Positions 3,155 through 48,740 of a DNA stretch of 64,000 nucleotides are shown here, one piece after another. Location of the stretch: NCBI GenBank assembly GCA_029948255.1, contig JALIZF010001702.1:1-64000 (forward strand), written 5' to 3'. The notes below the pieces were generated by a model, which was given only the letters and a program-made list of their open reading frames with translations, searched no databases and was not told the origin of the DNA. Position 1 is the first letter of the stretch; each line of letters starts with the position of its first letter. The stretch is from Telmatactis stephensoni. Lineage: Eukaryota > Cnidaria > Anthozoa > Actiniaria > Isophelliidae. The translations under genes and the position numbers were made by a program.

Positions 3155-3423
3155 GTAAGGCAAGTCTGTACGTTGTTCAAGCATATGGTTGTTTCATTGT
3201 GAAATTTCTTGATCAACTTGATGTCTTTCATCACAAAAACCCTAGTTGAAGTTTACTCGTCAAACTAGAATTATTTTTGACCTTAATCACGTGTGTCAAA
3301 GCATGTGTAATCATATCAGATGTTTGCCTCACTAGACCTAATACTAGATTCTACTTCCTTCGACTTTGTACTAGAGCCACAGCCGTCTGCTGCCTATAGT
3401 CTCGCTAATCCAGTCAACTCGCG

Positions 3424-5595
3424 ATGGAGAAGGAAAAGTTTCAAAGAACTGAAAATCCTCTACTCGATGAAATCCTTCAAAAGTACAGAGATTGTTCAAC
3501 AGATTCAATTTCTGGGCCCAAAGGATTTGGCGAGCCACTTGGCAAAAAGCCGTGGACCGTATCTTCAGACGTGAAAGGGAAACAGACGTTTGTTTCGTCT
3601 GGGGAGCCAGTAAGGGCAGCACGGAATCACTCTGTACTGCGCTCGGTGACTGCCAGGATGCACGTAGTCACAGCTAAAGACCAGGGACCATTGAAGTTCA
3701 AAGAAACCCTGGTAGATCAAATTCCCTTGGCCTGCTTTAGCTACGGTGGTGAAAAACGACTCTGTTTTAAAGATCTGGTCGAGAAAGTCTTGAAAGGATT
3801 CAGCACCCATGCAATTAACAGTGCACGCGATCGATTGCAAATTTTCTGCCCTCGCTGTACACCACAACAATTAGAAATTCTCAAGTTGGCTGGGGTACTG
3901 CCATGGTCGTGTACATCAGCTGGTTTAATTACTAAGAGTGATTCATTTCGATTAATTGGTGCTCTGACATGCTCATCATTTCCTAGAAGAAACAGTCGAA
4001 TATTTTCAGTGGAAAGTCTGGAGGTATATCACGAGTGTTTTGGTGGCTGTGTAGGGACGCTGGAAATTGAAGCCTACACTGACCCGTATGCAGAGTGTGT
4101 AACTTGCTCACAATGTGATGGAGTTTTCTCTCCTAGGACATTTGTGACTCATACACATAGCTCTGGAGAGGTGCATACATGTCACTGGGGTTTTGACAGT
4201 GCTCAATGGCGGTTATATTTAATGTTATGCAACGACCACCCCACTTTACATGTGCAAATGATGTGGGAGACGTTGACCAGTAAGTTTGCTGAAGGAAATT
4301 ATCGTAGGAGATTTAAGCGCGAGTACGATAATGATGCTGAGTACAGCTTCAATTCCAGGCAGTCGAGGACAAGTCCTGGTTTTCCTGGAAAAAAGTTTCG
4401 ACCTGAAAGTCCTCGAGATGGAAGTGTGAGCCCCAAGCACAAAGAGCCTGAAGAGCGTTACGTTTGTTGCTCAAATGGTGTTGTAACATCGTGTACCAAT
4501 GGAGGAGACATCATGTGTCGGCGATCAGCTTTCAGGCCTTGGTCTCCAAATGGGAATGGAAGGCAAAATGGAAGATCAGTCGATAAAGTGGTCGCCAGCA
4601 CTATGTCAGTGATTCCGCCTGGTTCACCTGCCAGGATTTTTACACCATCTACAATTTCTTCACTTAACACTGAGTGCCACTGTGGAAGTACAAACTGCAC
4701 TCATCGTGGACAAAACACCTTCAAGAGTTCCAGCCCCAAATCTACTTCCCCCTCTCAGCAATTATCAGAGAACATTTCCACCCCGACAACGAAAGACCCA
4801 TTGTCTTTAGAGAAAACTGCTAAAGACATGTTAGATGTGGTCAGTTGTGAAAATCATGGCTGGAATACTTTTGAAGAAGCTTATTCCCATTTGCAAAATG
4901 GCTTGAAGGTTGGGGTCAACTCTGTTAATATATCAATTACAGAGGAGGATATTTACCAAACTCTCGTTCGACACATAAGTAACGGCGAGCCTCCAAATGT
5001 TAAAGAACTTAGCTCTATTTTAGCTAAAGATTTACAGGAAATTTTATCTCACAATGAAATGAAAGTAAAAGAACTATACACTGAGAAAGCCAAGATTGAA
5101 GATGCTTTGGATTCCATAAAGCGAGAGCATGCAAATAGAATCGAAGAACTGTACGATGATTTGAGAAAATCGAAAAAAGACCTACGTCTTTGTCAAGCCA
5201 GGTACAGAGACGAAACCCATGAACTTCAAAATAAAATCAACAGTCTTGAAGCTGAGTTGAGGCGCCAGAAGTTCGACAAAGAAGGGAGTGTAGGGTGCAG
5301 TAGCTCTAAAGAGTCACTTGAAGTCCTCCAACAAGAAGTAAGAGATATGAGTGTTAAACTTGAACAAAAGGACAGCTTTTGTAGAGAACTTGAGAACGAA
5401 CTGAGCTCACTCCATGCTTGGATAAAAGCTCAAACTTATCATCCTACTTCGACTATTTTATATGGCTATCGTCCACACAGACCACAATCTCGAACTGTAA
5501 TCCAAAGTGTTCAACTTGTGAATGGAAATTCCGAAAAATCGACACCAAAGTCGAATGGAGTCATGCGACACGACAGCTCTGAGGAAGACGTATAA
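3424..5595 (+). CDS. Ski/Sno family transcriptional co-repressor
   Basis: Nuclear co-repressor that, in known relatives, binds Smad4 and receptor Smads and represses TGF-beta/BMP target genes through HDAC complexes. The 723-residue protein has a SKI/DACHSHUND domain at about 95-188 (core GGEKRLCFKDLVEKVL, then FCPRCTPQQLEILKLAGVLP and GLITKSD). A c-SKI Smad4-binding (SAND-like) domain follows at about 200-290 (VYHECFGGC, then CVTCSQC, HTH and CHWGFDSAQWR), with the Cys/His pattern expected for zinc binding. The middle is serine-rich and low in structure; about 535-665 is a charged coiled coil. The size is close to vertebrate Ski (about 730). The start is the first ATG before the conserved domains and has an in-frame stop upstream (3406). 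Vertebrate Ski/SnoN genes have several coding exons; here the whole coding region is one exon. The SKOR/Fussel subfamily is a less likely alternative. Confidence 0.93.
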   Translation: MEKEKFQRTENPLLDEILQKYRDCSTDSISGPKGFGEPLGKKPWTVSSDVKGKQTFVSSGEPVRAARNHSVLRSVTARMHVVTAKDQGPLKFKETLVDQIPLACFSYGGEKRLCFKDLVEKVLKGFSTHAINSARDRLQIFCPRCTPQQLEILKLAGVLPWSCTSAGLITKSDSFRLIGALTCSSFPRRNSRIFSVESLEVYHECFGGCVGTLEIEAYTDPYAECVTCSQCDGVFSPRTFVTHTHSSGEVHTCHWGFDSAQWRLYLMLCNDHPTLHVQMMWETLTSKFAEGNYRRRFKREYDNDAEYSFNSRQSRTSPGFPGKKFRPESPRDGSVSPKHKEPEERYVCCSNGVVTSCTNGGDIMCRRSAFRPWSPNGNGRQNGRSVDKVVASTMSVIPPGSPARIFTPSTISSLNTECHCGSTNCTHRGQNTFKSSSPKSTSPSQQLSENISTPTTKDPLSLEKTAKDMLDVVSCENHGWNTFEEAYSHLQNGLKVGVNSVNISITEEDIYQTLVRHISNGEPPNVKELSSILAKDLQEILSHNEMKVKELYTEKAKIEDALDSIKREHANRIEELYDDLRKSKKDLRLCQARYRDETHELQNKINSLEAELRRQKFDKEGSVGCSSSKESLEVLQQEVRDMSVKLEQKDSFCRELENELSSLHAWIKAQTYHPTSTILYGYRPHRPQSRTVIQSVQLVNGNSEKSTPKSNGVMRHDSSEEDV

Positions 5596-18345: not shown

Positions 18346-18354
18346 TTTATAAAG
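18346..18354 (+). promoter_or_regulatory. TATA box of RPxCxxGxC peptide gene 1
   Basis: TTTATAAAG lies about 73 bp before the ATG at 18421. The other two members of the family have a TATA-like element at almost the same distance, which supports all three as real core promoters. Confidence 0.6.
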
Positions 18355-18420: not shown

Positions 18421-18822
18421 ATGCAACTCTGTACACTTGTTTTTGTACTGCTGATCTTGGCTGGTTCACCGAGTAGTTGGCCAAAAGCAGTTAGTGCAAG
18501 ATCTTTAGGATATAACGAAGACATGAGTGAGTACCTCGATTATTTAGCGTCAAGCCGAGGGGAAAAACCTCTAGAAGAATCAAAAGCACTACAAGAAGAC
18601 AGCCCACTAGAAATTTCCAAAAACGAGGCAAGACCAGTATGCCGTAGTGGTGGGTGTCTTGAAAGAGGCTCAGAAGTAATGAAAAATCAAGATCCAAAGC
18701 AAATAATGTTGCCTCAAAATCGTTTTTTTCGAGAAGCTTCAAAACGCGAAGGACTGAGGCCACCATGTTTTAAAGGTAAATGTCCTGAAGACGCTGTACG
18801 AAGACACCTCTTCATGAATTGA
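18421..18822 (+). CDS. Secreted peptide precursor with two RPxCxxGxC cores (gene 1)
   Basis: A 133-residue intronless precursor. Residues 1-26 form a signal peptide (hydrophobic LVFVLLILAG, likely cut after AVSA). The rest is acidic spacer plus two copies of a short cyclic-peptide core. The first, RPVCRSGGC (71-79), has no dibasic flanks. The second, RPPCFKGKC (113-121), lies between KR (108-109) and RR (127-128); cutting there would release EGLRPPCFKGKCPEDAV. The only cysteines outside the signal peptide are the two in each core, so each core should close as a C-x4-C disulfide ring. The layout matches neuropeptide or peptide-hormone precursors; the receptor and role are unknown. Paralogues lie at 24.2 kb (-) and 28.2 kb (+). 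I know no named family with this motif. An antimicrobial or other secreted role remains possible. Confidence 0.75.
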   Translation: MQLCTLVFVLLILAGSPSSWPKAVSARSLGYNEDMSEYLDYLASSRGEKPLEESKALQEDSPLEISKNEARPVCRSGGCLERGSEVMKNQDPKQIMLPQNRFFREASKREGLRPPCFKGKCPEDAVRRHLFMN

Positions 18823-19188
18823 AGTCCGTACTACCTAACACAAGAAAGAATTAGCCCATGAATTCACTCTAACACTGAAAAGAAATCAAACCTATGTATT
18901 TTTCTAACTTAGCCCAGAATTTAGCACACAGATTTGCTTATAGTAGTTGTATCGCACATAGTAAATCAAGGAATCGCACATTTGAACAAACAAGCTTTTT
19001 TTCATTCAGTTGTTACGAAGACTTATCAAGGAACTGATATACAAAGCTGGTCTTGTTTAGAATGATCGCTGTTTGAGTCGAATTCAGAAGAGCGAAAGTC
19101 GACTGTTTGATGTCGCTTGTGTGTATAAAAACTGATAATGATTCTAGATCTATTTTATGTAGTCTTAGCTAATACGTTGGAAATATTA

Positions 19189-19194
19189 AATAAA
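19189..19194 (+). terminator. Polyadenylation signal of peptide gene 1
   Basis: AATAAA followed by 'agtctagtttt', about 370 bp after the stop codon. With the TATA box it defines a compact intronless transcription unit of about 0.85 kb. Confidence 0.5.
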
Positions 19195-19629
19195 AGTCTA
19201 GTTTTAAAGAAAATTCACAGTCATTCAATTTAGTTCAAAATGTTTTAATTATACTTACAAAAGTATTTACGTCGCAAATCTTGGCTTTTTACAACTAACT
19301 TTGTAGTCAAAAACTTGTCCATCATTCTAGTATACGTTTTTCTTCTCATTGTGATTTTTCTCTGAGAGCGCGCATTAGTGCCAGTCTTTATTTGTATGGC
19401 TCGGTAAACGTTGGAAGACTGATACGGTCATTTCCAGCGTAATCGTCGTGCATCCAATACCAAGCGTCCAAAAACAATCTCTTGTGAAAAATTCTGTCGT
19501 TTACCATAATTTCAGTGTTTGCAAAGTCAAAAGTGTGTCCAGCGTCATTAGCGTGTTGAGCGATCTTCGTTCTTATGTTCGCTTGTTCTCGTCTTTAGGA
19601 ATCTCTCTCGCTCTCGTAGTGATTTTTTG

Positions 19630-19959
19630 CAGGGTCCCCTATACCTTTTGCGTGAAACGTGAATGACTGATTAATTTTGACGTGAAACGTGAATGGCTGA
19701 TTAATTTTGACGTGAAACGTGAATGGCTGATTAATTTTGACGTGAAACGTGAATGGCTGATTAATTTTGACGTGAAACGTGAATGGCTGATTAATTTTGA
19801 CGTGAAACGTGATTTAAGGCCTAAAATCTTTTTGCGTCCACGTGAAAGCAATTTTTGATTTTTTTGTGAACGTGAAAGCTTTTTTAATTATTCGTGACGC
19901 GTGAAAAGACCAAATATTTTTGCGCGATTTCATTTTGCAAAGGGGTATAGGGGACCCTG
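19630..19959. mobile_element. MITE with CAGGGTCCCC ends, TTTTTG duplication and internal 30-bp repeats
   Basis: Terminal inverted repeats begin CAGGGTCCCCTATACC at 19630 and end with the complement at 19959. A 6-bp target-site duplication TTTTTG flanks both sides (19624-19629 and 19960-19965). Inside are about five tandem 30-bp units containing 'gacgtgaaacgtgaatggct' (19660-19811), then decayed units. The clean duplication shows it moved as a transposon. The superfamily is not resolved. Confidence 0.85.
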
Positions 19960-20659
19960 TTTTTGATATAGTCACACGCACTTCTTGTAAAGCCAACTGA
20001 TCAAGGCTGTAGATGCAGCAAACGTCTTAGTAAATAAAAATCTTACAAGTCAAAGGCAAAAAGGATATTAATATAAAATTGAACTATGAATAATGACTGA
20101 AAATTCAATATTTTTTAAAATCCGAAACGTTTCAAATTATCCATGGCAACGATACTAGCAACTCAATTTGAACACAAATGGATTGAATTTTCTGAAATTT
20201 CTAATCACAGTGATGTTATCATATTTCGCCTTACAATAATATTTATTAACTTATATAGCGCGAATATCAATTGGGATTTTCATCCGCGCTTATATCTTAT
20301 ATCAATATAACAATATATCGGTTTTATAACACTCACTATAACGGGGCAGATTTGGAGTGTGATCCAGGAGTGTCCACCCCCCTGAGATGACTTTGGGCCA
20401 TTTTCTCTTCGATACCTTTCCTCCGCCTTTGTCGCCCGGACTCCAGCGACCACCAAATGTTTTCATCACAGGCGATGTGACTTCAATGATGTCTTTTACG
20501 AGTGTACTATGGAAAATTTTCATGGTTTCTGAATTCTATAACGCTATAGTCCCCTCCTAAAGGCTAACACTAGACTCGCTCTTGCTTTTCTCAGCCTGCA
20601 TTACCAGCTCTTGAAAGGAGAAGAGTTCGTAGCAACGCAGGCGTATTGTCCTCGAATTC

Positions 20660-21060
20660 TCTATAATATCAACAGCCCTAAATACAAACACAGATACCTC
20701 TATAATACCAACAGCCCTAAATACAAACACAGATACCTCTATAATACCAACAGCCCTAAATACCAACACAGATACCTCTATAATACCAACACCCCTAAAT
20801 ACCAACACAGATACCTCTATAATACCAACACCCCTAAATTGACCCTAAATACCAACACAGATACCTCTATAATACCAACAGCCCTAAATACCAACACAGA
20901 TACCTCTATATAATACCAACACCCCTAAATACAAACACAGATACCTCTATAATACCAACACCCCTAAATACAAACACAGATACCTCTATAATACCAACAC
21001 CCCTAAATACAAACACAGGTATCTCGAAAATACTAACACCCAAATACAAACACAGATACA
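20660..21060. repeat. Minisatellite, about 37-38 bp unit
   Basis: About ten units of 'taataccaaca.ccctaaat' plus 'accaacacagatacctcta', some with short insertions. It gives open frames on both strands (20557-20913) that are repeat translations. Confidence 0.9.
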
Positions 21061-21860
21061 AACACCTTTACACAGATGTGTACACCTAGTGCGAACACAC
21101 CCCATAATGATATAAAAACATACTGGGTTTCATGCATAGTTTTGTAACAATCGACTGCTAACAGCTGTATTAAACAGTCCTCTTTCGATATGTTGGATGA
21201 ATGATAGCAACCAATGAGGTCAAATCGAGGTTCTGGGGACATAAAATGCTAATTACGATTCTCTATTGTTAGACCGAAGCCTCGTTTTGAATTCCTTGTG
21301 TGGAATAACTCAACCAGTTTATGAAAAGAAGTCTGTCGTTCGGTGTAAATGACTTGTGTAAATTTCTAGTGTGACGTTATCGACGTCATACTTTTCAACC
21401 GGTGTTTGTTAATTAAAAACAATATTAAGCCCTTTTAACTGGGTTTTTATGGGTTTTGAAGACTTTAAAATACGTGATGTTGAAACGAAATTGCTTACAA
21501 GAACAAATGGATGTTAAGCAGCCAAGGGCGATAACGCGTTTCTAACTAGACTGGAGTCGCTCTAGTTATAGCGATGATTAACACAGGTGGACAGTGCATT
21601 AGTCTGCTATGAAAGAGGTGAAAGTGTACCTCATAGTGTCATTTGATGGTGCATTAAGAGTTTTGTCTTAACTGATACATAAAAGGCCCTACCGCACGTG
21701 CATTGTCTATGACAATTGGTCCTCAACAACTTTTTTGCCAAATTCATATCACAAATGCACTTGTTATGTGAAATTGTGTTGACTGGGTAAGTCCATTTAT
21801 AAATCAATCGATCAATCAATTGTCTTAGACAATTGCTCATTTTGAAGAGCATTAAGGAGT

Positions 21861-22094
21861 AAGGATGGCACAGTTGGTTAGTGCGAGTTTCATCTCCGGA
21901 TCTCACATCCTTGTTTCAACTTCTTTCCTTTCCGTGTAGCTTTAATTAGCTTTAAATATACCCTTAAAACGGAGCACTGATGGAGAGAGGGGAGTAAAAT
22001 GAGCGCACTGTCGACCTCAAGTTTATCAGTTACTCAAGTTACTGTCACAAGTTATCGACGTAAAATATGGTCGTTTTACTTTACTTTACTTTAA
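21861..22094 (+). mobile_element. tRNA-headed SINE, family B, copy 1
   Basis: Begins 'aaggatggcacagttggtta' (A-box-like), then 'tcacatcctt.tttc.acttctttcc', then 'cggagcactgatggagagag', and ends in 'cgacgtaaa...ttac'. It matches 29921-30170 but is shorter in the head, where the B box is lost. Non-coding. Confidence 0.8.
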
Positions 22095-22559
22095 GGCTGC
22101 TGGTTCACGCATTTGACAAGCAGAATTGCAGGTGAAATACGCGAACTCAGTGAGGTACTGTTCATTAGCAAACATACACAGTTCAGACTCGTATAGACGT
22201 TGGCGAATGTTTTGCCAATACAAGGGAGATTTTCTTTGTTTGAAATTTTATTCCCTAAAAGGATTGTATTGGGAAAACATTGGGGCAAGCGAGGAAGGTC
22301 TGTTGACCAAGTCATTACTAACTATTAGCGCGAAGTCGAAAGACAAAGCGCACAAAGGGTTTCGAGAAGGCGAAGAAAAAAATCCCCCTTTTTTCTTCCT
22401 TCCCTTGATGCACAGCGCGGTCAGTGCCAACAAGAGAAGCGAGCGACTGGATACGAATCAGTAATTAGCAGCTCATTATTCGGCTCATTAGCAGTGCTTG
22501 TCTCTTCACTGGCGACATAAGCACAAACAACATACCCAGACTCAGTAATGTACTATGTA

Positions 22560-22678
22560 CTTATCGACTGAGTTGGGTCGGGCTGAACAGGAAAATATTT
22601 GGCTCGAGATCATGGCCGTACGGACCGAGCGAGAGCCAAACATTTTCCTTTCTGGCCCGACCCAACTCAGTCAATAAG
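22560..22678. mobile_element. Foldback MITE, arms about 48 bp
   Basis: The left arm (22560-22608, with 'gactgagttgggtcgggct') is the imperfect reverse complement of the right arm (22631-22678). The loop is only about 22 bp, so the transcript or single strand would form a long hairpin. Confidence 0.8.
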
Positions 22679-23304
22679 CATTTTGTCATATGATTCTTTT
22701 TGATAATTATATTGATATTTTTGGGGCGCGCGTAGGTCCAAATTCGGATACGGGTTAATTTTTCCGGACCACCTTCGAAAATTCCATGTGCCCTGTCACG
22801 TGACTATTTCCAAAGGTTTTTTGGAGAGCACGCGCGGGACCAAATACGAGTTAAGCATTACAGGGATGCTTGTTAGCAGTAGAGTGCATGAGTTTTTACA
22901 TCCCTAGCTATGATGACAATACCGCGCTTATGTTTGTGCTGCAAGTGGAACAGATGGACAAAGAGCAATAAAAACGTTTTCCAAAACATCCACTTCTCAA
23001 GGTCGATCCAAGTAGCTCTTTATTTCAGCTTTAACTTATAGTACTATTATATTGTATTGTATTGTTGTATTATAGTACTGTTCAGTTTTTCAGCAAAATG
23101 AATTGTAAGCCACTAGAGATGCCTGGAAAGTCACAATCGATTTTCCACACTGAGTTTCCAGGATTGGCTGATCTACGAAGGAAAAAAAAACCATGAATAC
23201 CATCATACATGTGTGTAGATCGTTGTTGCATTACAAGTTAGTATAGAGTAGATTTCATATGACTGTGACAACGGCTCTTCATGGCAAGAATTCGAATGCT
23301 TTAT

Positions 23305-23475
23305 AGACGACACGGTCACTACACCACACGGTCACTACACCACACGGTCACTACACCACACAATCACGACACAGTCACTAAACCACACGGTCACTACACG
23401 ACACTGTCACTACACGACACAGTCACTACACGACACGGTCACTACACGAAGCGGACACTACACGACACGGTCACT
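23305..23475. repeat. 14-bp minisatellite (cacggtcactacac)n
   Basis: About a dozen imperfect 14-bp units. The 80-codon open frame over it is a repeat translation. Confidence 0.9.
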
Positions 23476-23799
23476 ACAGGGCGCGGTCCGTTTCACGCTT
23501 ATACGAAAACTGCTCTATTATAACATGACGAACGCTCTCAAGAAGTCGATGCCTGAACAATGTTTTTGAAGATCATTCAAAGAGTCTGCATTGTCATGTT
23601 ATCTCTAATACTAAAGCAATCGAGAGGAGACTGATATGTACAATAAAAACACCAGTTATATTACACATACACATATTTCTTGATCGATGACTTCATTTTA
23701 TAAACCGTCAACTCACTAACAGTTCATATATCGCCTTTGAAGTTTGATATTCCTCCTCTATTTATGCCGGAACCCTCTGCATAAGATCTCTAATCCGTA

Positions 23800-23943
23800 T
23801 AGTGTTAACTAGCATTAAATACTCGTAGAACGGTGCACTGATGGAGAGAGCGGGTGCTAAAGGGTGGACCATCAAGTTTATCAGTTACTCTTGAAGTTGA
23901 ACTGTCACGATTTACCGACGTAAAATGAAGTCGTTTACCTCCC
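23800..23943 (+). mobile_element. tRNA-headed SINE, family B, partial copy 2
   Basis: Only the body and tail survive: 'cggtgcactgatggagagag', 'caagtttatcagttactc' and 'accgacgtaaaatg..gtcgttta' match the copy at 21861. The tRNA-like head is unrecognisable. Confidence 0.65.
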
Positions 23944-24171
23944 GCTACAACTACCATCTACCCACATGGCTAATGACAAAATATCTCAGCTGGTAATGTG
24001 ATAGGATAAAAATTGAACCGATATGGAATCCTCCAGTAATTTTCCCCAGTGTAAAATGATATATGCAATTCTTATTTTGCCTTTTATAGAAACTTAGCAA
24101 ACAGTGGAATTGAACTTTATCGAACAGACGATCAAATTAATTGATACCTACTTTTCGAAGCCATCATCTAT

Positions 24172-24408
24172 TCATATACTTTTGTCATTGTCGATGAAAT
24201 CTACTGGACGTTCCTGACTTAAACGTTGTATTGGACAGCGCCCTCTCCAGCACATTGGACGTTCACCTCTTTGGGGTTCTCTCCGATAATTTTGTGGTCG
24301 TTCAGAAATCCCTTGGATTGTCTCACGAAGACTCTTCCCACACGTACATGGGGTCAAAAGCATTAGCGCTATCACTACGCAAAGTACAAACGTCGATGAA
24401 AGCTTCAT
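24172..24408 (-). CDS. Secreted peptide precursor with one RPxCxxGxC core (gene 2)
   Basis: A 78-residue intronless precursor on the minus strand. The signal peptide is about 1-24 (VLCVVIALMLLTPCTCG). A basic spacer has a dibasic RR at 42-43, then the core RPMCWRGRC (50-58). No dibasic site follows closely; a single R at 62 (PIQR) could serve. The core keeps R-P, both cysteines, the aromatic-basic pair after the first Cys and the Gly seen in genes 1 and 3. It lies opposite in strand to its paralogues, so the cluster arose by more than simple tandem copying. Same caveats on function as gene 1. Confidence 0.7.
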   Translation of the reverse strand: MKLSSTFVLCVVIALMLLTPCTCGKSLRETIQGISERPQNYRREPQRGERPMCWRGRCPIQRLSQERPVDFIDNDKSI

Positions 24409-24478
24409 TTTTGCAGGAATGATTGAGGATGACAGCGCCGTCTCCCGTCGTACTGTAATGGTTCTTGTGCCCAGAGCG

Positions 24479-24487
24479 CTTTAAATA
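24479..24487 (-). promoter_or_regulatory. TATA-like box of peptide gene 2
   Basis: On the minus strand this reads TATTTAAAG, about 71 bp before the ATG at 24408. The spacing matches that in the two sister genes. Confidence 0.45.
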
Positions 24488-26290
24488 AAAATCGGAAAAA
24501 TGAAAACGAGGAAAAGGATGGTGTTGAACTGCATGAGTCTTCCGCCATCGCTGTCTTTTGATAAATCGAGCAATTAAACTCCCATGTGGAAGGTATGGCG
24601 GTATTTAGTAGGGACGTGGTCGACGACTTTACCGACTTTAATATGATTCATGGGGCACAAAGCACGTTTTCAGACGATATCACGGCATCAAAAAATATGG
24701 AGAAGATTTTGGTTCGAACGGTCCAAGGCGTGTACTATATCTTTGTAAAAAACATTTTCGATTAAGGGGCCCAAGACATGCTCCTTGAGGCACACCACAT
24801 AATCAAAACCTGTATGAATGTTCATTTTACATAGAGCACTAAAACAGAGTTAAAAAGTATTACTAAAATACGTTTTGGATTACTGGGGCCCAAGGCATGT
24901 TCTTTGAGGTCAACCAAATAATGAAAACCTGGAGGAATCCAAGTTTAAAACGGAGTCGTAAACAGAGGGTTTTTGAACATCATTAGAACTCCTGTTGAAG
25001 AGTTTTTACTGATTTTATCTGATCTTTCAATCGAGAATGATCTTGGACCACTTCATCCTTTTCAAAGTCCAATCTCTATAGAACTAACACAAATATTCTT
25101 GGAATATGGAGCGGTGAAATGATAAATAATTCAAAAAATATTGTTTCAGTGTGGCAAATTGAATTTGTCATGCCTCGGCGTCTATATGTTTTCAGCGGTC
25201 CAACCTTGAACTAAGAGAGAGAAAAGGAACTCATATTAATGGATACTTCCTCAAATAATGATAATATCAGGTCTTAAAATCTTATATATAAATTTTGAAA
25301 CCTTAAAATAGAAGGGAAGTCAAATAGGCTAGTTGTCATACTGTGATGCTCATAGGAAACCCAGGATGTTTATGTTCAATATTTCTTCCTTTTCATGCAG
25401 ATTTAAACCAATTTATTGCTAAAATATTGTTTTATTGTGCTGTAGGACTGTAATGAAAACGATTGCCACCCGGTGGTTTTAACATATACAGTAAATCGCC
25501 ACAAACACGAAGCTCTTCTAGTTGTTTTTACAGTGTAGGTGTTTATTAATTTGCGTTTTACTCCAAGTGAAGTAGACAGATTTTCTAAGTTTTCACTTAC
25601 GAACACTTGTGTACCTAAAAGCACTTACTAAACGATTGACAGATTACCAAGGTGTTCTACTGTTTGAGTACTTAAATTTGAGAATTAAATGGGGAATGTG
25701 TGGGTTTAAATTGAAAAATTAATACCCGAGGGACTATTCAAATCACTATTGCAATGGTAAATTCATCTCTGATAAAAGCAATTTTATTTGTTAATTTTGG
25801 AAAAGTCGCACAAATGATGTTTTTTATATTTATCTTTTATATTTTTTAAATTCATAATTTCCTTTCTTGTTTGTACCCGGTTGGTGTCAAAAGTTTGATT
25901 TGCCTCGAAAAAATATGGAGATTTATCATTCTCAAAGTCATTTTGAACATTTTCATCTATCGTTCCGAAACTAGCAACATTTTTTGTAATTCCAGCCTTT
26001 TCCCTTCCTTTGAAATAAACGACTTGTCGTCTTTCATACTTCGAAACTGTATAAAGTAGTGTTGCTTTGGCAAACTGACATTATTTTTTTCGAGTAGTTG
26101 ACTGCCTTTAATCGTTAAGCTACTCCAGGAGAAAGACAATTTTCGGAAGCTACTTTTCTATGGTATTTGATGATATCCTTTCTAGAATTTATTTGCAATG
26201 TACGACTCACTTAAAGGATAAGTGTTATTCAAAAAATTGCATGTTTGTTGACTTGTATGTGTTTGGAAAGCCTTTAGTAGTGTTCTATTA

Positions 26291-26530
26291 GCTGATGACT
26301 GTGTTTATATCAGAGGACAGACGACATGGTTCGCACAAAAACGTTGAATTTATTTCATAAAAGAAATATTAAACGCTCTCTTCGCTATGTACTGTGATAA
26401 AGACACAATGGAAGATGTGAAGCACTTGAAAATCAAGATTAACACTTGGGTGCGCCTATAAGCTTGCTTTTCTTGTGCTGTACATCCCCCCGCACATTTT
26501 ATATCACAGTACAGAGATTTGGGAGTACGT
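26291..26530. repeat. Dispersed repeat, copy 2 (pair at 16.4 kb)
   Basis: The same ordered blocks as 16430-16655. In this copy 'tgtactgtgataaa' at about 26390 pairs with 'tatatcacagtaca' at about 26502, a foldback arrangement. Confidence 0.7.
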
Positions 26531-26577
26531 GCTTAAATAAACTGTGGATTAGCCTATGGATTAGAGTTGAATCGCTT

Positions 26578-27112
26578 TAGAGATAAAAATACAGAGCTAA
26601 TTTACTACTGCCATAATAATTCTCAGTGATTTAAGGGTGAGATTATACACATTAGCTCTTTAAAATACGTTAAAAATCAGCTGATCTTTAGATAATTGTC
26701 TTCTCGGCAAAAGCGCACGCTTCAGACTCAAAGTGCACGAAGAATCGTTCCTAGTAACTTGTCAGCCAAAAATAGCTTGTATTAGACTCCTCCGCCTAGC
26801 AAAATTACAGAACCCCCCATAAAGATAGCTATAACATAATCAATCATTCTATCTTCATACAAACACGCTTTATTTATGTCTTCAAACAATAGCCATCTAG
26901 CATGTTTAAGCCTCTTCTTGAAGCATATTCAATATTTATCCAGTCTAAGAATCCGTAAGTACAATACAAGAAAAAATATAACTTAATTTCCTCAAAATTG
27001 ATCAAAAGTATTATCACTATCTCGACTTTGGATTTGTAACAAAGTAGATAAAAATACAGAGCTAATTTACGACTGCCATAATAGTTCTCAGTGATTTAAT
27101 GGGAAAAGCTTT
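26578..27112. repeat. Direct repeat pair about 470 bp apart
   Basis: 'agataaaaatacagagctaa' followed by 'tttac.actgccataat' and 'ctcagtgattta' occurs at about 26580-26635 and again at 27047-27103, nearly identical. No function is evident. Confidence 0.75.
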
Positions 27113-28086
27113 GAAATTTGTCGTTGTTACCATATATTTAAGCAACTTTCTACTTCGTGAGCTAGATTTTTAATATGAAATTACTTGAAAATTATCTCTG
27201 ACAAGGGTTCAACATTTGTATTTAGTTGTCTTAGAAATTATCTATTAAAAAGTTGTATGGGACATCTGAAAACAGTGTTTATGGATTCTGTATTGATTTC
27301 CTTGCCTTGGAAATATCCCAGGGGCTGATTTACCTTGGACTTATTATCCTATTTAGTAAATATAATAGATGGCTGAAATAGATTTTCTAAATATCATTTG
27401 GTATGATTCAAATGCGTCTGCTGAGTGTGATTGAAAGGGTATTGAAAAATGACCTTAAACGAATTTCTCAAAAACAAACTAACTCAAACTATTGAGAATT
27501 TGCTGAAAAATCTGACTGAGTCAAATTACGACGAAGTCAAAGTTTAAAACAGGCACAAAAAGTTAAATTTAAATGTTATAAACGTCGAAAATAAATCCGT
27601 GCCGTTGGGAAATTCCTTGCTGGGGGTTAGGTAGCAATTAGAATGCCTCTCAGTCCATGAACTAATAGCCGAAAGAAAGATCAGAACTAATAGCTACCAA
27701 CTAAGACATTCAAACAAAAATAATTCCGCGTCTGTTAAATATTGCTTTCTATTTTAGAGATGCAAAGAAAAATCACATTTAAAACCGTTAATTCGCAAAT
27801 CCGATAAGTTAATCTTTTGTAAAGAAGCTCAGCATCGTAAAGTTTTCCTATGAAACTTAGCGGGTAAAAAAACCTTTTTGCTTTGAAAAAGTGACTCGGG
27901 ATTTTCGCTTAAATCAATAGCAAGCTCCAGTTTCTGAAGTGTTTATTGCTGTATATTGGCTAAAAGAGGATTTCTTTGAATATTACTAAAGCTTATTGGA
28001 TACAAAAGGAACTTGATATAGCTCCCAAATGTAGTCACAATTGCAAGTTATTTGGTCATAATATCGTTCTTGAGCGAATCCAGAAC

Positions 28087-28094
28087 TATATAAT
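28087..28094 (+). promoter_or_regulatory. TATA box of peptide gene 3
   Basis: TATATAAT lies 84 bp before the ATG at 28171, a position close to that in the paralogues. Confidence 0.5.
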
Positions 28095-28170
28095 TCTTGG
28101 GTGTCCTTTTGGTCTTCACTCACAGAGTCAGTCAGTGTTTTTCTCGCTTTCGTCTGGTTAAGTCTTCACT

Positions 28171-28404
28171 ATGACCTACAGGCATCTAGTATTGTTAGCA
28201 ATAATGTTTATGATTTTGAATTTTGCATGCCTTTGCGAATGTAGAAGTAAACGCTCCAGTCGCAAGTTACAGGGAACACGACCAATTTGCTTCAAAGGCA
28301 AGTGTTATAATCGTTATGGAAAAAGAGAGCAGGAACGCATTCCTTTCCTGGAAATGTTATTTTCAAGCTCAAAACGACGAAATATACCCAGGATTTATGA
28401 ATAG
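28171..28404 (+). CDS. Secreted peptide precursor with RPxCxxGxC core and amidation site (gene 3)
   Basis: A 77-residue precursor with a signal peptide of about 1-24 (VLLAIMFMILNFACLC). It then has RSKR, SSRK (dibasic RK at 31-32), the core RPICFKGKC (37-45), YNRY and GKR (50-52). GKR is the classic signal for dibasic cleavage plus C-terminal amidation, so the predicted product is LQGTRPICFKGKCYNRY-amide with one C40-C45 ring. A second basic site, KRR, is at 68-70. This is the most hormone-like member of the family: processing sites on both sides and an amidation glycine. The CFKGKC ring is identical to the second core of gene 1. A poly(A)-like ATTAAA is at 28424. Receptor and biological role are unknown. 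Confidence 0.8.
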   Translation: MTYRHLVLLAIMFMILNFACLCECRSKRSSRKLQGTRPICFKGKCYNRYGKREQERIPFLEMLFSSSKRRNIPRIYE

Positions 28405-32093: not shown

Positions 32094-34264
32094 TCACATG
32101 CTGGAATGAATTGTGACGATTACTGTTGGCACAGAACCTTGGAATGGTTCTCTTTGACCCACAGCAGAAGATGGGCTGGATGCATTACCTGTGTCAAGTT
32201 GTGATGGGAAATTGACGTGTTGTTCTAGCTGAGGAGGGATTTCGCTACATGCAGCATGGTCCATTCTAGCGTCTGCTCGGTCGTTGGTGGGGATAACTAG
32301 TACTGCTTCATTGTGGCTGGTTTCGCTCTTCTCAACAAGTCCCGGTGGAGAAGCTAGTGCACAGGGGTTGTCTTGGGGACCATCTTGTTCTTCAATGTGC
32401 TCGTTAACTTGAAGTGAGCTGCCATAGAAACTATGCTGGTCGTCAATTTGCCCGTTGACTTGATTTGAGTTGTCATGGACACCAACCTGATCATCTGTAA
32501 TTGAGTTGCCATAGAAACCATCCTGCTCGTCAATTTGCTGGTTTACTTGGACTATCTCATCGTAACGATCAGGAAATTCATATATGTGAAGTCTCGTGCA
32601 ACAAGGCGAAAGGCAGCAACAGCCGTCATCCAAAATGAAGGGAGCTGGATTTTCTCCAATCCTTTCTAGTTTCTTGACCAGCGAGTTGGTGGCTTTGTCA
32701 CGAAAGTTTTCAAAGAGATTGATGTCACGAAGCCAATGATGAAGCAGACGTCCATGACGTAATGCATCGTAAAGTTCGTTTAGCAGCAACAAAAAGCACG
32801 GTACGATATTCTCGTCTACCCAGAAGTTAGTTGGAATTTTCTCCAGAGTGTTCAGAAAGATTGTCTTGATGTGGTATGATGCAATCTTAGGGTAAACAGG
32901 ATAAAGATGGTCTTTATGTATGACTCGTAGAGCCAATAAACACTTTCTGGCTGTCTGTGGTACCAGTTTTGACAGCTCAACCTCTGCTGTAGAGAAGGAA
33001 AACCGCCAACTTGTACGTTTTTTATCATATGGACATCGTCTTCCTGCAGACTTGGGTACGAAATGACACCCAAGTAACTCGATTCTCGTCACGTTTTCTT
33101 GGCTTGGCCAATATCGTGGTCGAGTAGTCCAGTCACTAAGATATGGCCAGTCAGAACATTTGATGCATAACACAATGTCGGCTTCATAATCTCCAGGAAT
33201 CTTGATCCTGATAGCGGGAGGTGTTACCTTCGTTCTGGCTCTTTTACAGAACATTTGCAGACCAAGATTTGCAGTATTCATGTTACCAACGGCTCTCAGT
33301 ACTTGTTGTATGATTTGTTTTGAGCTAATGATACACCCTGTTTTCATAAACCTCAATTGAACAAAGCCCTCGAACCGACTCCCCTGGGTTAGAGGTTCAA
33401 CTCGAATACCTGTTTCACCATTAAAAGATGCCTCGATGGACTGCGAACAGAACATAACGTCGAAATCTGTTTCTAGACCACTAATGAAGGCAGGCACTGC
33501 CGACTCCATGTAGGAACGAGGAGTGCCATATCGTTCTGCAACACTCCCAGCAATGATGCATTCATAGTATGTCGTAGATAGAATCCGCTCGCTCTCTAAC
33601 TCACTTTTCAAATGATTTAAACACTGAAGTGCTTTGTCTTTAGCATTTCCAAATTCTTCCTCAGATTGCAAATTGATGTCAATATCCAAGAGAATATCTT
33701 GTAGAGTTTTGGAACTTTTACCAGTGAAACTGCACTGTCTGTGTCCGCAGGCGATTGGCCAATATATTGGCTGAAAATAACAAACAAAATCAGAAACCAG
33801 AATCCCCGAATTTTATGGTTTGGTACAGCCCGGTGAAGTTACTTTAGAAGGGCCCGAGTCTGAGGATTTCAGGAAGCCCCCCATAAGGTGTTTCTATAAA
33901 ATGGTGCCCCCTTTCCAAATGTCTAGCTCTGACGCTGGAATAAACGTAACGAGTTTTTCCGGATATGACGCAGGCTCGCAAATCATCGTTAATTCGTAAC
34001 GGTAACTCTTTTGAAATAGGTGCATACTTACAATTTCGTCACGATACCCGAGCCAACAGACAAAGGAACAGCAACCAATACAGATCATAATCAAAGATAC
34101 CGCCAACAACCAGAAGCTTTGGTAGTACACTACCATTACAATGCCAAGGGGTAGAGCGACACAGTTATTACAAAATCCCAATATAATAACATAACTGGCT
34201 CTACATATTATATCACATCTGTCACTTCCTCCAATGGTTCTGCAGCATGGCGATCCACACATGG
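32094..34264 (-). CDS. Two-membrane-segment Mab-21/cGAS-like nucleotidyltransferase, copy 1
   Basis: Two exons on the minus strand. Exon 1 is 34264-34032 (ATG at 34262; donor ATT|GTAAGTATG). Exon 2 is 33770-32094 (acceptor TTATTTTCAG|CC). The join is phase 0 and gives 635 residues. Residues 1-77 start MCGSPCCRTIGGSDRC and hold two hydrophobic segments (about 23-47 and 50-71), so the protein should sit in a membrane. The Mab-21 fold follows: GS at 152-153, the metal-binding pair in ETDFDVMF (D179, D181) and a third acid in YEADIVL (D275), so catalysis looks possible. The tail (about 490-560) has imperfect QVN..ID.Q..FYG repeats. Relatives are animal cGAS-like receptors that make cyclic nucleotides on sensing nucleic acid; that role here is inference. 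ITPRIP-type Mab-21 proteins are also membrane-bound. A further 5' untranslated exon is likely. Confidence 0.82.
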
Positions 34265-38910: not shown

Positions 38911-41526
38911 TCACATGCTGGAATGAATTGTGACGATTACTGTTGGCACAGAACCTTGGAATGGTTCTCTTTGATCCACAGCAGAAGATGGGCTGGATGC
39001 ATTCCCTGTGTCAAGTTGTGATGGAAAATTGACGTGTTGTGCTAGCTGAGGAGGGTTTTCGCTAAATGCAGCATGGTCCATTCTAGCGTCTGCTCGGTCG
39101 TTGGTAGGGATAACTAGTACTGCTTCATTGTGGCTGGTTTCGCTCTTCTCAACAAGTTCCGGTGGAGAAGCTAGTGCACAGGGGTTGTCTTGGGGACCAT
39201 CCTGTTCTTCAATGTGCTCGTTAACTTGAGGTGAGCTGCCATAGAAACCATGCTGGTCGTCAATTTGCCCGTTGACTTGATTTGCGTTGTCATGGAGACC
39301 AACCTGATCATCTGTAATTGAGTTGCCATAGAAACCATCCTGCTCGTCAATTTGCTGGTTTATTTGGACTATCTTATCGTAACGATCAGGAAATTCATAT
39401 ATGTGAAGTCTCGTGCAACATGGCGAAAGGCAGCAACAGCCGTCATCCAAAATGAAGGGAGCTGGATTTTCTCCAATCCTTTCTAGTTTCTTGACCAGCG
39501 AGTTGGTGGCTTTGACAGAAAACTCGTCAAAGAGATTGATGTCACGAAGCCAATGATGAAGCAGACGTCCATGACGTAATGCATCGTAAAGTTCGTTTAG
39601 CAGCAACAAAAAGCACGGTACGATATTCTCGTCTACCCAGAAGTTAGTTGGAGTTTTCTCCAGAGTGTTCAGAAAGATTGTCTTGATGTGGTATGATGCA
39701 ATCTTAGGGTAAACAGGATAAAGGTGGTCTTTATGTATGACTCGTAGAGCCAAAAAACACTTTCTGGCTGTCTGTGGTACCAGTTTTGACAGCTCAACCT
39801 CTGCTGTAGAGAAGGAAAATCGCCAGCTTGTTCGTCCTCCATCATAAGGTGCAATCTTTGGTACGAAATGACACCCATGTGAAACTATTCTCCTCACATC
39901 CTCTTGGCTTGGCCAGTGTCGTGGTGGAGTAGACCAGTCACTAAAATATGGCCAGTCAGAACACTTGATACATAACAAAATATCTGCTTCGTAATTTCCA
40001 GCAATACTGATCCTGATGGCTGGTGCGTGTGTCTCCATTCTGATTCTGTTCCAGCAAATTCTCAGACCAAGATTTGCAATATTCATGTTACCAACGGCGC
40101 TCTCTGCTTGTTTTATGATTTGTTTTGAGCTAATGATACACCCTGTTTTCATAAACCTCAATTGAACAAAGCCCCCGAACCGATTCCCCTGGATAAGAGG
40201 TTCAACTCGAATACCTGTTTCACCATTAAAAGATGCCTCGATGGACTGCGAACAGAACATAACGTCGAAATCTGTTTCTAGACCACTAATGAAGGCAGGC
40301 ACTGCGGCCTCCATATAGGAAAGAGGAGTGCCATATCGTTCTGCAACGCTCCCGACAATGATGCATTCAAAAATTGTTGGTGGAATCTTGTTTTCCAATT
40401 CAGCTTTCAAATAGTTGAAACACTGAAGTGCTTTGTCTTCGGCCTGTTTGAATTCTTCTTCAGATTGCAAATTGGTGTCAACATCCAAGAGAATATTTTG
40501 TAGCGTTTTGGAACTTTTACCAGTGAAACTGCACTGTCTGTGTCCGCAGGCGATTGGCCAATATATTGGCTGAAAATAACAAACAAAATCAGAAACCAGA
40601 AAATGTAGGAGACAACTAGCGAGTGAACTAGTTTGGTCTGACATCGGTGTATAAAAATACAACAAGGGATGGATGGAAATTTGTATCGTCGTAAAGAAAA
40701 GAACTAACACACTGTATTTTGAGCTATAGTCCTTCGTCTTAGCCCTTCTCCTTTTATACGGTATTCCAAGTTTCTTTTTACCACAATCATCTCGCTTTCT
40801 GATTGGTCGAGAACTGCGCGCTCGCGCTCGAGCTAGTTCGACGAGAATTTGTGGTAAAAAACAAATTTACAATGGCTTTTCGTGGTATGTACTCTTATTC
40901 ACCAACATTTTACGTCACACATGGTCAAAATTAGTTATGAACCAATTCGGCTACGCCTCGTGAGTCGATAACATTTTGACGATCTGTGACGTAAAATGTT
41001 GGTAAATAAGAATCCATACCACAGAAAGCCATTGTAAATTTGTTCAAGTTATCCCTTATTCATTATTTTGTTGTTTATTATAAAAGTAAGGTCTCTGTAA
41101 TAAAAATCCGACCAGCTGGAGCATGGCAACTGTTTTGGGGGGGTGGGGAGGGTGAAAAGGGCAATATTAGTCGCGCTCCCTTCTCTCACGGTTCACTCCA
41201 GCAAGAATCTCAGAAGAAGACTCACAAGTCCACAAGAACCACAAGTCCTTTTGGCCTTGATATGTCCGTTCGTGACAACAACCTTTGTAAAATAGGTGTA
41301 TACTTACGATATTTTTACGACAGCATAACCAAATGATAGCGAACAACCAATTCAAAGTAATCATCGTTCCAGATAGCGCAAACGCGATGATGGCCAAACC
41401 AGTCAATCCCAGCACAATACCAAGTATAAAAGCGGTTAAATTATTCCAAACTAAAAATAATATCAAATACGGACATCTGTAACTTCCTTGGATGGTTCTG
41501 CAGAACGGTGATCCACACATGGTTGA
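38911..41526 (-). CDS. Two-membrane-segment Mab-21/cGAS-like nucleotidyltransferase, copy 2
   Basis: Same two-exon layout as copy 1. Exon 1 is 41526-41308 (ATG at 41520; donor AATATC|GTAAGTATA). Exon 2 is 40569-38911 (acceptor TTATTTTCAG|CC), again phase 0, giving 623 residues. Residues 1-71 begin MCGSPFCRTIQGSYRC and hold two hydrophobic stretches, but between these the sequence is barely similar to copy 1. GS is at 144-145, the acid pair at D171/D173 (ETDFDVMF) and the third acid at D267 (YEADILL). The C-terminal half is almost identical to copy 1, while the region around 230-320 differs and is six residues shorter (KIAPYDGGRTS against KSAGRRCPYDKKRTS). Reading the large exon alone gives an open frame starting in the intron at 40710; the splice site makes that start wrong. 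Function as for copy 1. Confidence 0.82.
40861..41043. mobile_element. Foldback MITE in the intron of Mab-21 copy 2
   Basis: Arms of about 70 bp: 'acaaatttacaatggctttt' and 'caacattttacgtcaca' at the left, mirrored from 40972 to 41043. The loop is about 40 bp. It is absent from the much shorter intron of copy 1, so it inserted after the duplication or was lost from copy 1. Confidence 0.85.
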
Positions 41527-46600: not shown

Positions 46601-48740
46601 ATGCGTGACTTCGTATGTATCATTTCGGGTTCGTTTACATGGCGATCCCAGAACTAGAGAACTACAGCTGCCGCGGTCTAAGGCTTGAATAAGAGATACG
46701 TAAATAACGTTATGTGCAGAGTAGTTTGCAACGGCAAACGGTAGATCATTCCTCGAGTTCATATTTTTTGACTTGGACGGGCATAACAAATTTCAACTTA
46801 TCAACGAGCAACAAAATTCTATTCTGCATTTTGCAGTAACCTGGCCAAATTTGTTGATTACTAAGCTTTAAAACTGACTAAGGGCCTGATTGTATGAACC
46901 GGGCTGGCCCGGTTAAGCGAGCTGATTTATTTTGTTTTGAGTCCCCAAAGAAAACAGAAGAAGTCAGCCCACTTAACCGGGCCAGCCCGGTTCATATAAT
47001 CAGGCCCTAAAGACAAGAACCAACGGTAAGGATAATGTATCAATACAATATCAATATAAGAGAGCCATCATACCAAATTCGTGGGTTGCAGCTCCCACGC
47101 TCCAACACCCTTTTCCCAAAGAAAGTTGTTGTTTTCCCCCTTGACGACCAACCCAAGACCAACATCTGTAAGACCAAAGAACAAATGATTTTGTGTGATG
47201 TCAGTTTTACCCTCATCCTCACTCAAATGTCCGCCAAGTTGTGTTAGATGAACAAGACGCTAGAGTAAATTTTATGTTACTGTTAGAACGACACCGTCAT
47301 CACGGCACCGCTAAATTAAGCGCCCAAAATATAACTCGAAAGCACGAGTCTTTTTTCCAGCTTAAGCCTGAGTTTGACCCGTGATATTTCTCCATCCGCA
47401 TTGTCTTCGATTGAAAGAATTATCTACAACACTAGTCTAGCGGTTAGTAGATTGTTTACGTGTCATCATTTTGCAAGTTGAATACAATTTTTAATAATGA
47501 GATTGCCAACCAAATCTTCCATGTCAATAAGTTCTTGCATTTGACATGCAAAAAGATTTTGAAAGTAAAGATACCTGCATGCGTAACCAAATTCTTTATA
47601 TGTTTTGCAGTAGTAGAACTCGTTTCTAAACCTTTAACTGTTGCGTGCAATATTGCAGGGGTAAACACACGGTACAACTGTTGCGTGCAAAAAATGGTGC
47701 ACGGTGTTTTCCTGGCTTTATGTGCTGCTACACTTTTTGAGCAATGTTAGTTTCTCAGTTTGGACGCATTTAGTGAAAAGTATCTTACCCCTCTCCGTCA
47801 ATGATATCGATGTAGTCTTTCTCAGTTGTCCTGCGCACAAATTTAAGACAAGTATTTTCCTCCCACTCTCTGATACCATCGTTTATGGCTTTCATGGCTT
47901 CAGGAATTTGCTCTGAAGATAAACGTTTAATTAATAATGAATATTTACGATCCGTTATGCTTTTTACAATGTTTCTTTCCCAGGGAATGACGGACAATGT
48001 GCTCTGAGATTCTAAACAAACGTACAAACAAAAAACAACAACAAACAGTAAGCTCAAAACAAAGGAAATACAGAATAGAAAAGAAAAGCTGCACTGGAAG
48101 TAGGAGTCGGGAATTGGACAAGTGCAGGTTACCCTTGATTGGATTGTACACAACAACAAAGTGTGAGTCATCTATGATGATATAATATACTGCGATGTAG
48201 TCTTGTGTAATAAGTAATGTTGCCACTTCAGTTCGCTCCCCCTCCCCACACTCCCTCTCCCTCCTCTCCCCCTTCTCCCCCTCCCTCCTCCCCCTCTCCC
48301 CTCCTCTCCCCCTCCACATTATTGGTAATAGTTCCCCTGCTCCCTCCTCCTGGGGGTGTAACTAACCTAATTCATTAGAGACATTGTAAGGCACAACTAA
48401 ACTGGACCACAGCAATGTAGGGTCCTTGGCTGCGCCTCGTCCTATAGAAACAGTTGGATCTCCAAACCAGTCCAGTGCGACTTGCTGAGCGGGATTCAGT
48501 TTGATGTCGCCCTCGTGAAGAGAGACACCATGGCTTTCTGAAACTGTTTGAATTAATAAAGTAAAATTAACTTCAAATATGAACGCTGAACCGTTTCTGA
48601 ATAGACGAAAACGTAAAAGAGTGAAGAGTGGATAATAAACTAAGAACCGAAGAAATGAATGAACACTGACCTTTAAACTCGAGGGCCAACCCTCCATGCA
48701 ACAACACAAGAACTGATACGAGAGATAGGAAAATTCTCAT
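43498..48740 (-). CDS. Astacin-MAM zinc metalloprotease
   Basis: Secreted protease of the astacin/meprin family. Ten exons on the minus strand: 48740-48671, 48537-48367, 47912-47789, 47165-47074, 46538-46455, 45972-45754, 44856-44803, 44473-44324, 44162-43897, 43581-43498. All join in phase, giving 437 residues. Signal peptide 1-20 ([17 protein letters not shown]); propeptide with the aspartate switch HEGDIKL (D34); astacin domain about 67-253; Pro/Thr linker ([13 protein letters not shown]); MAM domain about 273-437 ending in [11 protein letters not shown]. The active site [12 protein letters not shown] (150-161) is interrupted by an intron after the first Gly. The Met-turn is STMHY with the Tyr209 ligand. 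The layout resembles Hydra HMP2 and other cnidarian astacins acting on matrix or in morphogenesis, but there is no ShK module. Two MITEs sit in its introns. Confidence 0.93.
43605..43735. repeat. (CTGA)n microsatellite in an astacin intron
   Basis: Tandem tgac/ctga between exons 9 and 10 of the metalloprotease. The Ser/Val/Gln-rich frame on the minus strand is a repeat translation. Confidence 0.95.
45283..45670 (+). mobile_element. Composite tRNA-headed repeat, copy 1
   Basis: About 390 bp, the reverse complement of 57020-57422. At 45593-45660 there is a tRNA-like module with A box 'tggcgcaaagtg' and B box 'gggttcgaatc'. At about 45495-45520, on the other strand, the phrase 'ttagcctagtggtaaggtgc' gives a second A-box-like motif. 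It lies in an intron of the astacin gene (between exons 6 and 7). Probably a SINE made of two tRNA-like parts head to head. Confidence 0.8.
46266..46391. mobile_element. MITE with TAGGCCCTTTGCAGCATG ends
   Basis: 18-bp terminal repeats, perfect, with a second inner pair ('ttggagggcaaaac' and 'gtttttgccctccaa'). It lies between exons 5 and 6 of the astacin gene. Confidence 0.85.
46882..47007. mobile_element. MITE with TAA duplication (PIF/Harbinger-like)
   Basis: Terminal repeats begin GGGCCTGATTGTATGAACCG and run for about 38 bp with one or two mismatches. TAA flanks both sides (46879-46881 and 47008-47010). A 3-bp TWA duplication and GGG-starting ends fit PIF/Harbinger-type elements. It lies between exons 4 and 5 of the astacin gene. 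Confidence 0.85.
48235..48320. repeat. Polypyrimidine tract (CCCTCTCC)n in an astacin intron
   Basis: About 85 bp of almost pure C/T between exons 2 and 3. The Glu/Arg-rich frame on the other strand is an artefact. Confidence 0.9.

Follow-up and report, generated by a model that had tools for sequence, protein, structure and literature searches.

At least seven putative precursors of secreted cyclic peptides encoded on a single contig of a presumed anthozoan

The stretch analysed here, referred to as the window, comprises positions 1 to 64,000 of contig JALIZF010001702.1 (C259) and carries three small open reading frames (ORFs), g1, g2 and g3, which appear to encode precursors of secreted peptides with a short cysteine ring. 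The initial annotation had described three genes at 18421 (+), 24408 (−) and 28171 (+), and all three ORFs were found there. The g1 ORF (18421..18822, +) encodes 133 amino acids with a hydrophobic N-terminus and contains two cores identified by motif scan, RPVCRSGGC (18631..18657, +), which on reading has no dibasic flanks, and RPPCFKGKC (18757..18783, +), which is preceded by KR and followed by RR. The g2 ORF (24172..24408, −; 78 amino acids) contains the core RPMCWRGRC (24235..24261, −), with RR upstream and a single Arg soon downstream. The g3 ORF (28171..28404, +; 77 amino acids) contains the core RPICFKGKC (28279..28305, +), which is followed by YNRY and then by Gly-Lys-Arg (28318..28326, +), a classic signal for cleavage and, as predicted from the codons, amidation.

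A search of the window's six frames with the pattern RP.C..G.C gave four matches (18631 +, 18757 +, 24261 − and 28279 +), all inside g1–g3, whereas the window shuffled 300 times under a first-order Markov model averaged 0.0067 matches and never gave more than one; therefore, the occurrence of RP-x-C-x-x-G-x-C is not due to chance. Cysteines are located at residues 4, 74, 79, 116 and 121 of g1, 10, 21, 23, 53 and 58 of g2, and 20, 22, 24, 40 and 45 of g3. The ring cysteines are thus the sole ones outside the signal peptide, as had been claimed, if the signal peptide ends at residue 23 or later in g2 and at residue 24 or later in g3. An in-frame stop lies 54, 75 and 12 nt upstream of the g1, g2 and g3 ORFs, respectively. 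A TATAAA that may serve as a promoter element is present upstream of g1 (18348..18353, +), 73 nt before the ATG, and TATA-like words (TATAAA, TTTAAA or TATATA allowed) occur at −77 in g2 and −84 in g3, which in AT-rich DNA is weak evidence.

The family proved larger than the three genes originally proposed, as four further members, g4–g7, were found on the same contig. An ORF scan of 264 kb (the window plus C259:64001-264000), in which a hydrophobic N-terminus and a C-x4-C among two or four later cysteines were required, returned six ORFs, namely g1–g3, g4 (REPCFMARC; C259:111444-111707, +), g5 (CSFYMC; C259:124496-124699, +) and g6 (SPVCNYGSC; C259:133326-133550, +), while the reversed sequence returned three, all of them poor. 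A protein search of the whole genome with g4 hit five places: g4 itself, g7 (RAPCGMSFRC; C259:554156-554362, −; E 0.016), a copy of g7 on contig C1203, a weak match on C191 and, weakly, g6 (E 3.35). The C191 match (E 0.68) was dropped, as was a protein match on C78 (E 0.69) that contained stops. Seven members is a lower bound, given that the ORF scan covered the first 264 kb of C259. All seven share one plan, a ring of the type C-x4-C (C-x5-C in g7), and signal-peptide-like N-termini as judged by hydropathy alone (best 10-residue Kyte-Doolittle means of 3.27–3.82 in g1–g6 and 3.33 in g7). A Pro one or two residues ahead of the first ring Cys is present in six of the seven genes, g5 being the exception, and the full RP-x-C-x-x-G-x-C consensus fits g1–g3 only. 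Comparison of the DNA of g1–g6 with 1.5 kb on each side showed no similarity in 14 of 15 pairs, the remaining pair, g2/g3, having a 21-base match (E 0.009), implying that any duplications among g1–g6 are old. We infer that g1–g7 are paralogues related by common descent, with weak similarity outside the ring.

The assembly searched comprises 483.5 Mb in 1782 contigs. A restricted core pattern, which does not capture the first g1 core, g4, g5 or g7, occurred at 19 places in it (nine for the backwards-pattern control), of which seven corresponded to g6 and to g1–g3 on two contigs, C259 and C1084. The other 12 places (L001-L009 and L014-L016) were dropped, as none had a signal-peptide ORF by eye; some of them could be exons. 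On C1084 the three genes recur as open ORFs in the same order and with similar spacing, and their 3-kb loci are 99.1–99.4% identical in DNA to those on C259 over the alignable parts, which are nearly the whole g1 and g2 loci and 2.2 of the 3.0 kb of the g3 locus. Given this order, spacing and identity, C1084 is probably the other haplotype. The haplotypes differ by one silent substitution and one replacement in g1 and one replacement in g2, while the coding sequence of g3 is identical, and the rings of all three are untouched. In g7, two silent substitutions, three replacements and a 2-base gap beyond the ring were found. These differences are too few for any selection test. An apparent 11% divergence of the g3 flank between the haplotypes traces to its last ~800 bases, which fail to align; identity over the 2.2 kb that do is 99.4%. 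The haplotype alignment breaks off at about window 29000 (L012 from 2231 on), ~600 bases beyond g3, perhaps at an insertion in one haplotype. C1084 and C1203 duplicate parts of C259 at ~98–99% identity, which suggests that alternative haplotypes have been retained in places in the assembly.

Comparison of the second g1 core with the g3 core showed six substitutions in the codons of their eight shared residues, all of them silent; the comparison was made after setting aside the ninth codon, which encodes Pro in g1 but Ile in g3 and differs at three bases. An all-silent outcome was obtained in 1 of 200,000 random draws, and a constraint on the ring codons of these two cores is supported. Outside the genome, a seven-member profile was run against a database of 5.77 billion proteins, 6232 candidates being scored, and two proteins were recovered at E ≤10, P0001 (E 2.3e-10) and P0002 (E 3.3e-3), the latter a record of four member sequences on nine contigs. 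P0001 is an evident relative with the ring of g7; it is identical to g7 at 11 of 11 core residues and at 47 of the other 69. P0002 shares with g4 the 15 consecutive residues PFREPCFMARCVRRR over the ring and is identical to it at 11 of 11 core residues, but at 20 of the remaining 74 (27%). The identity of the cores beside the divergence of the rest implies that the ring is the conserved part of g7 and g4.

Searches of other collections returned little. No match to g3 was found among solved structures or phage proteins; the g4 core pattern was absent from prokaryote contigs, and neither this pattern nor CFKGKC occurred in viral contigs, the phage, prokaryote and viral outcomes being as expected for an animal gene. 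Rfam gave nothing at the gathering score in the window. The Pfam scan, which covered g1–g3, g5, g6, P0001 and P0002, showed no family above the cut-off; an antimicrobial family of nematodes gave a weak match below its curated cut-off (E 0.055) to residues 66–85 of g1, which hold the first core.

By reading, dibasic sites lie on both sides of a ring in five of the seven genes and on one side in g2 and g6. A strict pattern, which required dibasic sites before and after a Cys pair, matched four times in the 264 kb, at the second core of g1 and at g3, g4 and g5, missing g2 and g6, and matched neither the reversed sequence nor any of five order-2 shuffles. In g7, which lies beyond the region scanned with the strict pattern, KK precedes the ring and RRRRR follows it. 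Immediately or soon after the ring, four genes (g3, g4, g5 and g7) have GKR or GKK. The product of g3 is predicted to end in ...CYNRY-amide, and g5, which reads QGPPKNPYQTCSFYMCRN-GKK, would yield GPPKNPYQTCSFYMCRN-amide. The net charge of the seven predicted peptides cut at basic runs (K and R minus D and E) ranges from 0 to +4.

These features suggest, with a probability of about 0.6, that g1–g7 are precursors of secreted cyclic signalling peptides of the hormone or neuropeptide type. Each precursor would enter the secretory pathway and be cleaved at basic residues that flank a short segment, releasing a peptide of ~13–21 residues in which a single disulfide would close a ring of six residues (seven in g7), an architecture common among peptide hormones; some of the peptides would be C-terminally amidated, and the ring would be the part read by a receptor, probably a G protein-coupled receptor (GPCR). 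The earlier proposal of a peptide hormone or neuropeptide family is thereby upheld as regards secreted single-ring precursors, to which the dibasic sites, the amidation signals, the ring codons and P0001 and P0002 all point, and its functional half is what we infer from them. Several observations weigh against it. Excision of the ring is poorly marked in places, as a single Arg is all that soon follows the g2 ring or precedes that of g6, and dibasic residues are lacking on either side of the first g1 core. Amidation signals are absent from g1, g2 and g6, and the amidation Gly of g7 is Ser in its relative P0001, so that g3 and g5 are the best-supported amidation candidates. Although the rings of g4 and g7 are kept in P0002 and P0001, RP-x-C-x-x-G-x-C, the motif of the initial annotation, has no known counterpart elsewhere: protein database searches with the profile and with g1 and g3 as single queries, though not with g2 as one, recovered no relative of g1–g3. 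Moreover, g4–g7 probably extend beyond a splice donor and may have further exons, and the long Arg runs of g4, g6 and g7 would suit cationic effectors too. A more far-reaching version, in which the genes are lineage-expanded, clustered cyclic neurohormones, each gene contributing a different ring for a correspondingly expanded set of peptide GPCRs, and in which they were overlooked by screens for repeated cleavage sites because a precursor has just one or two rings, is put forward tentatively.

The genes could instead be a cluster encoding antimicrobial or other innate-immune effectors, each a small disulfide-looped peptide with a cationic tail, which we regard as a less probable reading. Poly-Arg or Arg/Lys-rich tails adjoin the ring in g4, g6, g7, P0001 and P0002, the first-core region of g1 gave the weak nematode antimicrobial match described above, and clusters of diverse paralogues, as seen here, are common among effectors. 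On the other hand, the net charge of the predicted peptides is just 0 to +4, and the g4 ring, constant across 15 residues in an otherwise diverged protein, behaves more like that of a hormone than that of an effector. That the genes encode venom components of stinging or gland cells is improbable: small secreted Cys-containing peptides from a presumed anthozoan would fit such a role, whereas a single disulfide per peptide, the lack of a Pfam family above the cut-off in the proteins scanned and the lack of a solved-structure match to g3 argue against it. The ORFs are short, as chance ORFs would be, but the motif statistics, the silent substitutions and the conserved g4 and g7 rings make a chance origin very hard to credit.

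Another explanation, which we consider unlikely though not as much so as venom, is that each ORF is the opening exon of a longer spliced gene for a secreted protein, with the ring forming part of a bigger fold. Just after the ring, g4, g5, g6 and g7 carry AAG|GTTAGC, AAG|GTAAGA, AAG|GTAAAT and AAG|GTTAGA, respectively, which look like splice donors. Beyond AAG|GT the frames share little and stop within six codons in g4–g6, and in g7 the 2-base haplotype gap falls in this part; both the sites and the unconserved sequence beyond them would suit a larger protein. By contrast, the reading frame of g1–g3 stays open up to its stop codon, with no AAG|GT donor-like site at the corresponding place. The description of the genes as intronless is borne out as far as an uninterrupted ORF goes, and may hold for g1–g3 only. 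No convincing second exon common to g4–g7 lay within 8.5–9 kb, or within 1.5 kb in the case of g7; the search yielded three short matches, which were far from the donors and were read as repeats. In addition, the basic sites would free the ring regardless of what followed, as the reading of g1–g7 as signalling-peptide precursors supposes.

None of the named peptide systems compared fits the family, in agreement with the initial annotation, which had recognised no named family. Vasopressin and oxytocin have a C-x4-C ring, a neurophysin domain and a C-P-x-G-amide end. The present genes resemble them in a C-x4-C ring within a secreted precursor, but differ in that the predicted peptide does not begin with the Cys and the C-P-x-G-amide end is absent; Pfam found no neurophysin in g1–g3, with no family in g2 and g3 and an unrelated sub-threshold one in g1. 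According to the accessible text of two reports, the cyclic FRamides of Cubozoa and Scyphozoa have a predicted six-residue C-x4-C ring in a secreted precursor with basic cleavage sites, and each precursor yields several peptides that resemble one another and end in CWFR-amide, or CWFRP-amide in N. nomurai (PMC6402141, PMC6909153); they are reported as lacking in Staurozoa and Octocorallia (PMC6909153). Ring size, secreted precursor and basic sites are shared by g1–g7, which, in contrast to the FRamides as described there, carry a single ring each, except for g1 with two, differ in the residues of the ring and lack a WFR end, the amidated multi-copy CxxxMCWFR end being absent from all seven sequences. 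The insect CNMamide, as seen in the portion of its report available, has C-x4-C, two residues and an amide, as in GNPPPLCYFKICNM-amide (PMC4237046). The layout of g5 is the same, with a Pro-rich N-side and the closest end, ...CSFYMCRN-GKK, whereas no CNM-amide end occurs in g1–g7 and the other six genes have other tails; the likeness is one of layout, with no homology shown.

The hexacoral families named in the accessible parts of one survey, including GRFamide, GLWamide, PRXamide, RPamide and RWamide, are linear (PMC7523074), in contrast to the ring peptides of g1–g7. Points in common are the occurrence of some precursors with a single copy, protection of the N-terminus by Pro and amidation (PMC7523074), the last two being predicted in the present genes. 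The words 'cyclic', 'cysteine' and 'disulf' are absent from that main text, and 'cystine' occurs once, in connection with vasopressin; the additional files lay outside this check. The C-terminal Arg-Pro-amide of RPamides was not found in g1–g3, where RP precedes the ring and the three proteins contain no RPG. In Nematostella, mass spectrometry as described in the accessible text supports dibasic-site cleavage, N-terminal x-P or x-P-P, often with a flanking acidic residue, and amidation (PMC11087051). N-terminal Pro motifs resembling this style occur in g5 (LDAQ-GPPKNPYQ...) and the second g1 core (EGL-RPPC), the acidic residue being three positions from the cut rather than adjacent; the likeness is relevant provided that the animal is a cnidarian, as the initial annotation presumed. 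The same study gives disulfide bridges as one reason for uncertain identification by mass spectrometry, and ring peptides may be in its supplementary lists (PMC11087051). In the literature searched by subject and ring strings, as far as its accessible text goes, the family was not recognised, matches of the CFKGKC type being plant or antimicrobial peptides; a listing elsewhere is possible.

If the signalling-peptide reading is correct and the animal is a hexacoral, disulfide-ring signalling peptides would join a group known, from the portions of the literature available, for linear amides, many of them from multi-copy precursors. The peptides would also be ready ligands for orphan receptors, and screens for repeated cleavage sites, such as the regular-expression step in the accessible text of PMC11087051, could miss single-ring precursors. 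Outside the window, a single-frame receptor of the rhodopsin class (7tm_1) was identified by Pfam and solved structures at C259:187218-188249 (+; L032:3218-4249), its best solved-structure matches including somatostatin, orexin and galanin receptors; the class is numerous and no pairing with the ring peptides is proven.

Within the window, SKI/SNO Dachshund-homology and SMAD4-binding domains are encoded by a long open frame at 3409-5592 (+). Two frames resembling Mab-21 nucleotidyltransferases at 32097-33812 and 38914-40866 (both −) are possibly cGAS-like receptors. The SKI/SNO and Mab-21 domains mark the source of the DNA as an animal. The block at 19630-19959 has inverted ends, recognised by eye (CAGGGTCCCCTATACC... 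and ...GGTATAGGGGACCCTG), around 5.6 copies of a 30-base tandem repeat and looks like a non-autonomous DNA transposon. Tandem arrays lie between the ring-peptide genes, with a 39-base unit repeated 10 times (20659-21059) and a 16-base unit repeated 11 times (23307-23478). A frame at 47788-48171 (−) resembles, by eye alone, an exon of an astacin-type metalloprotease.

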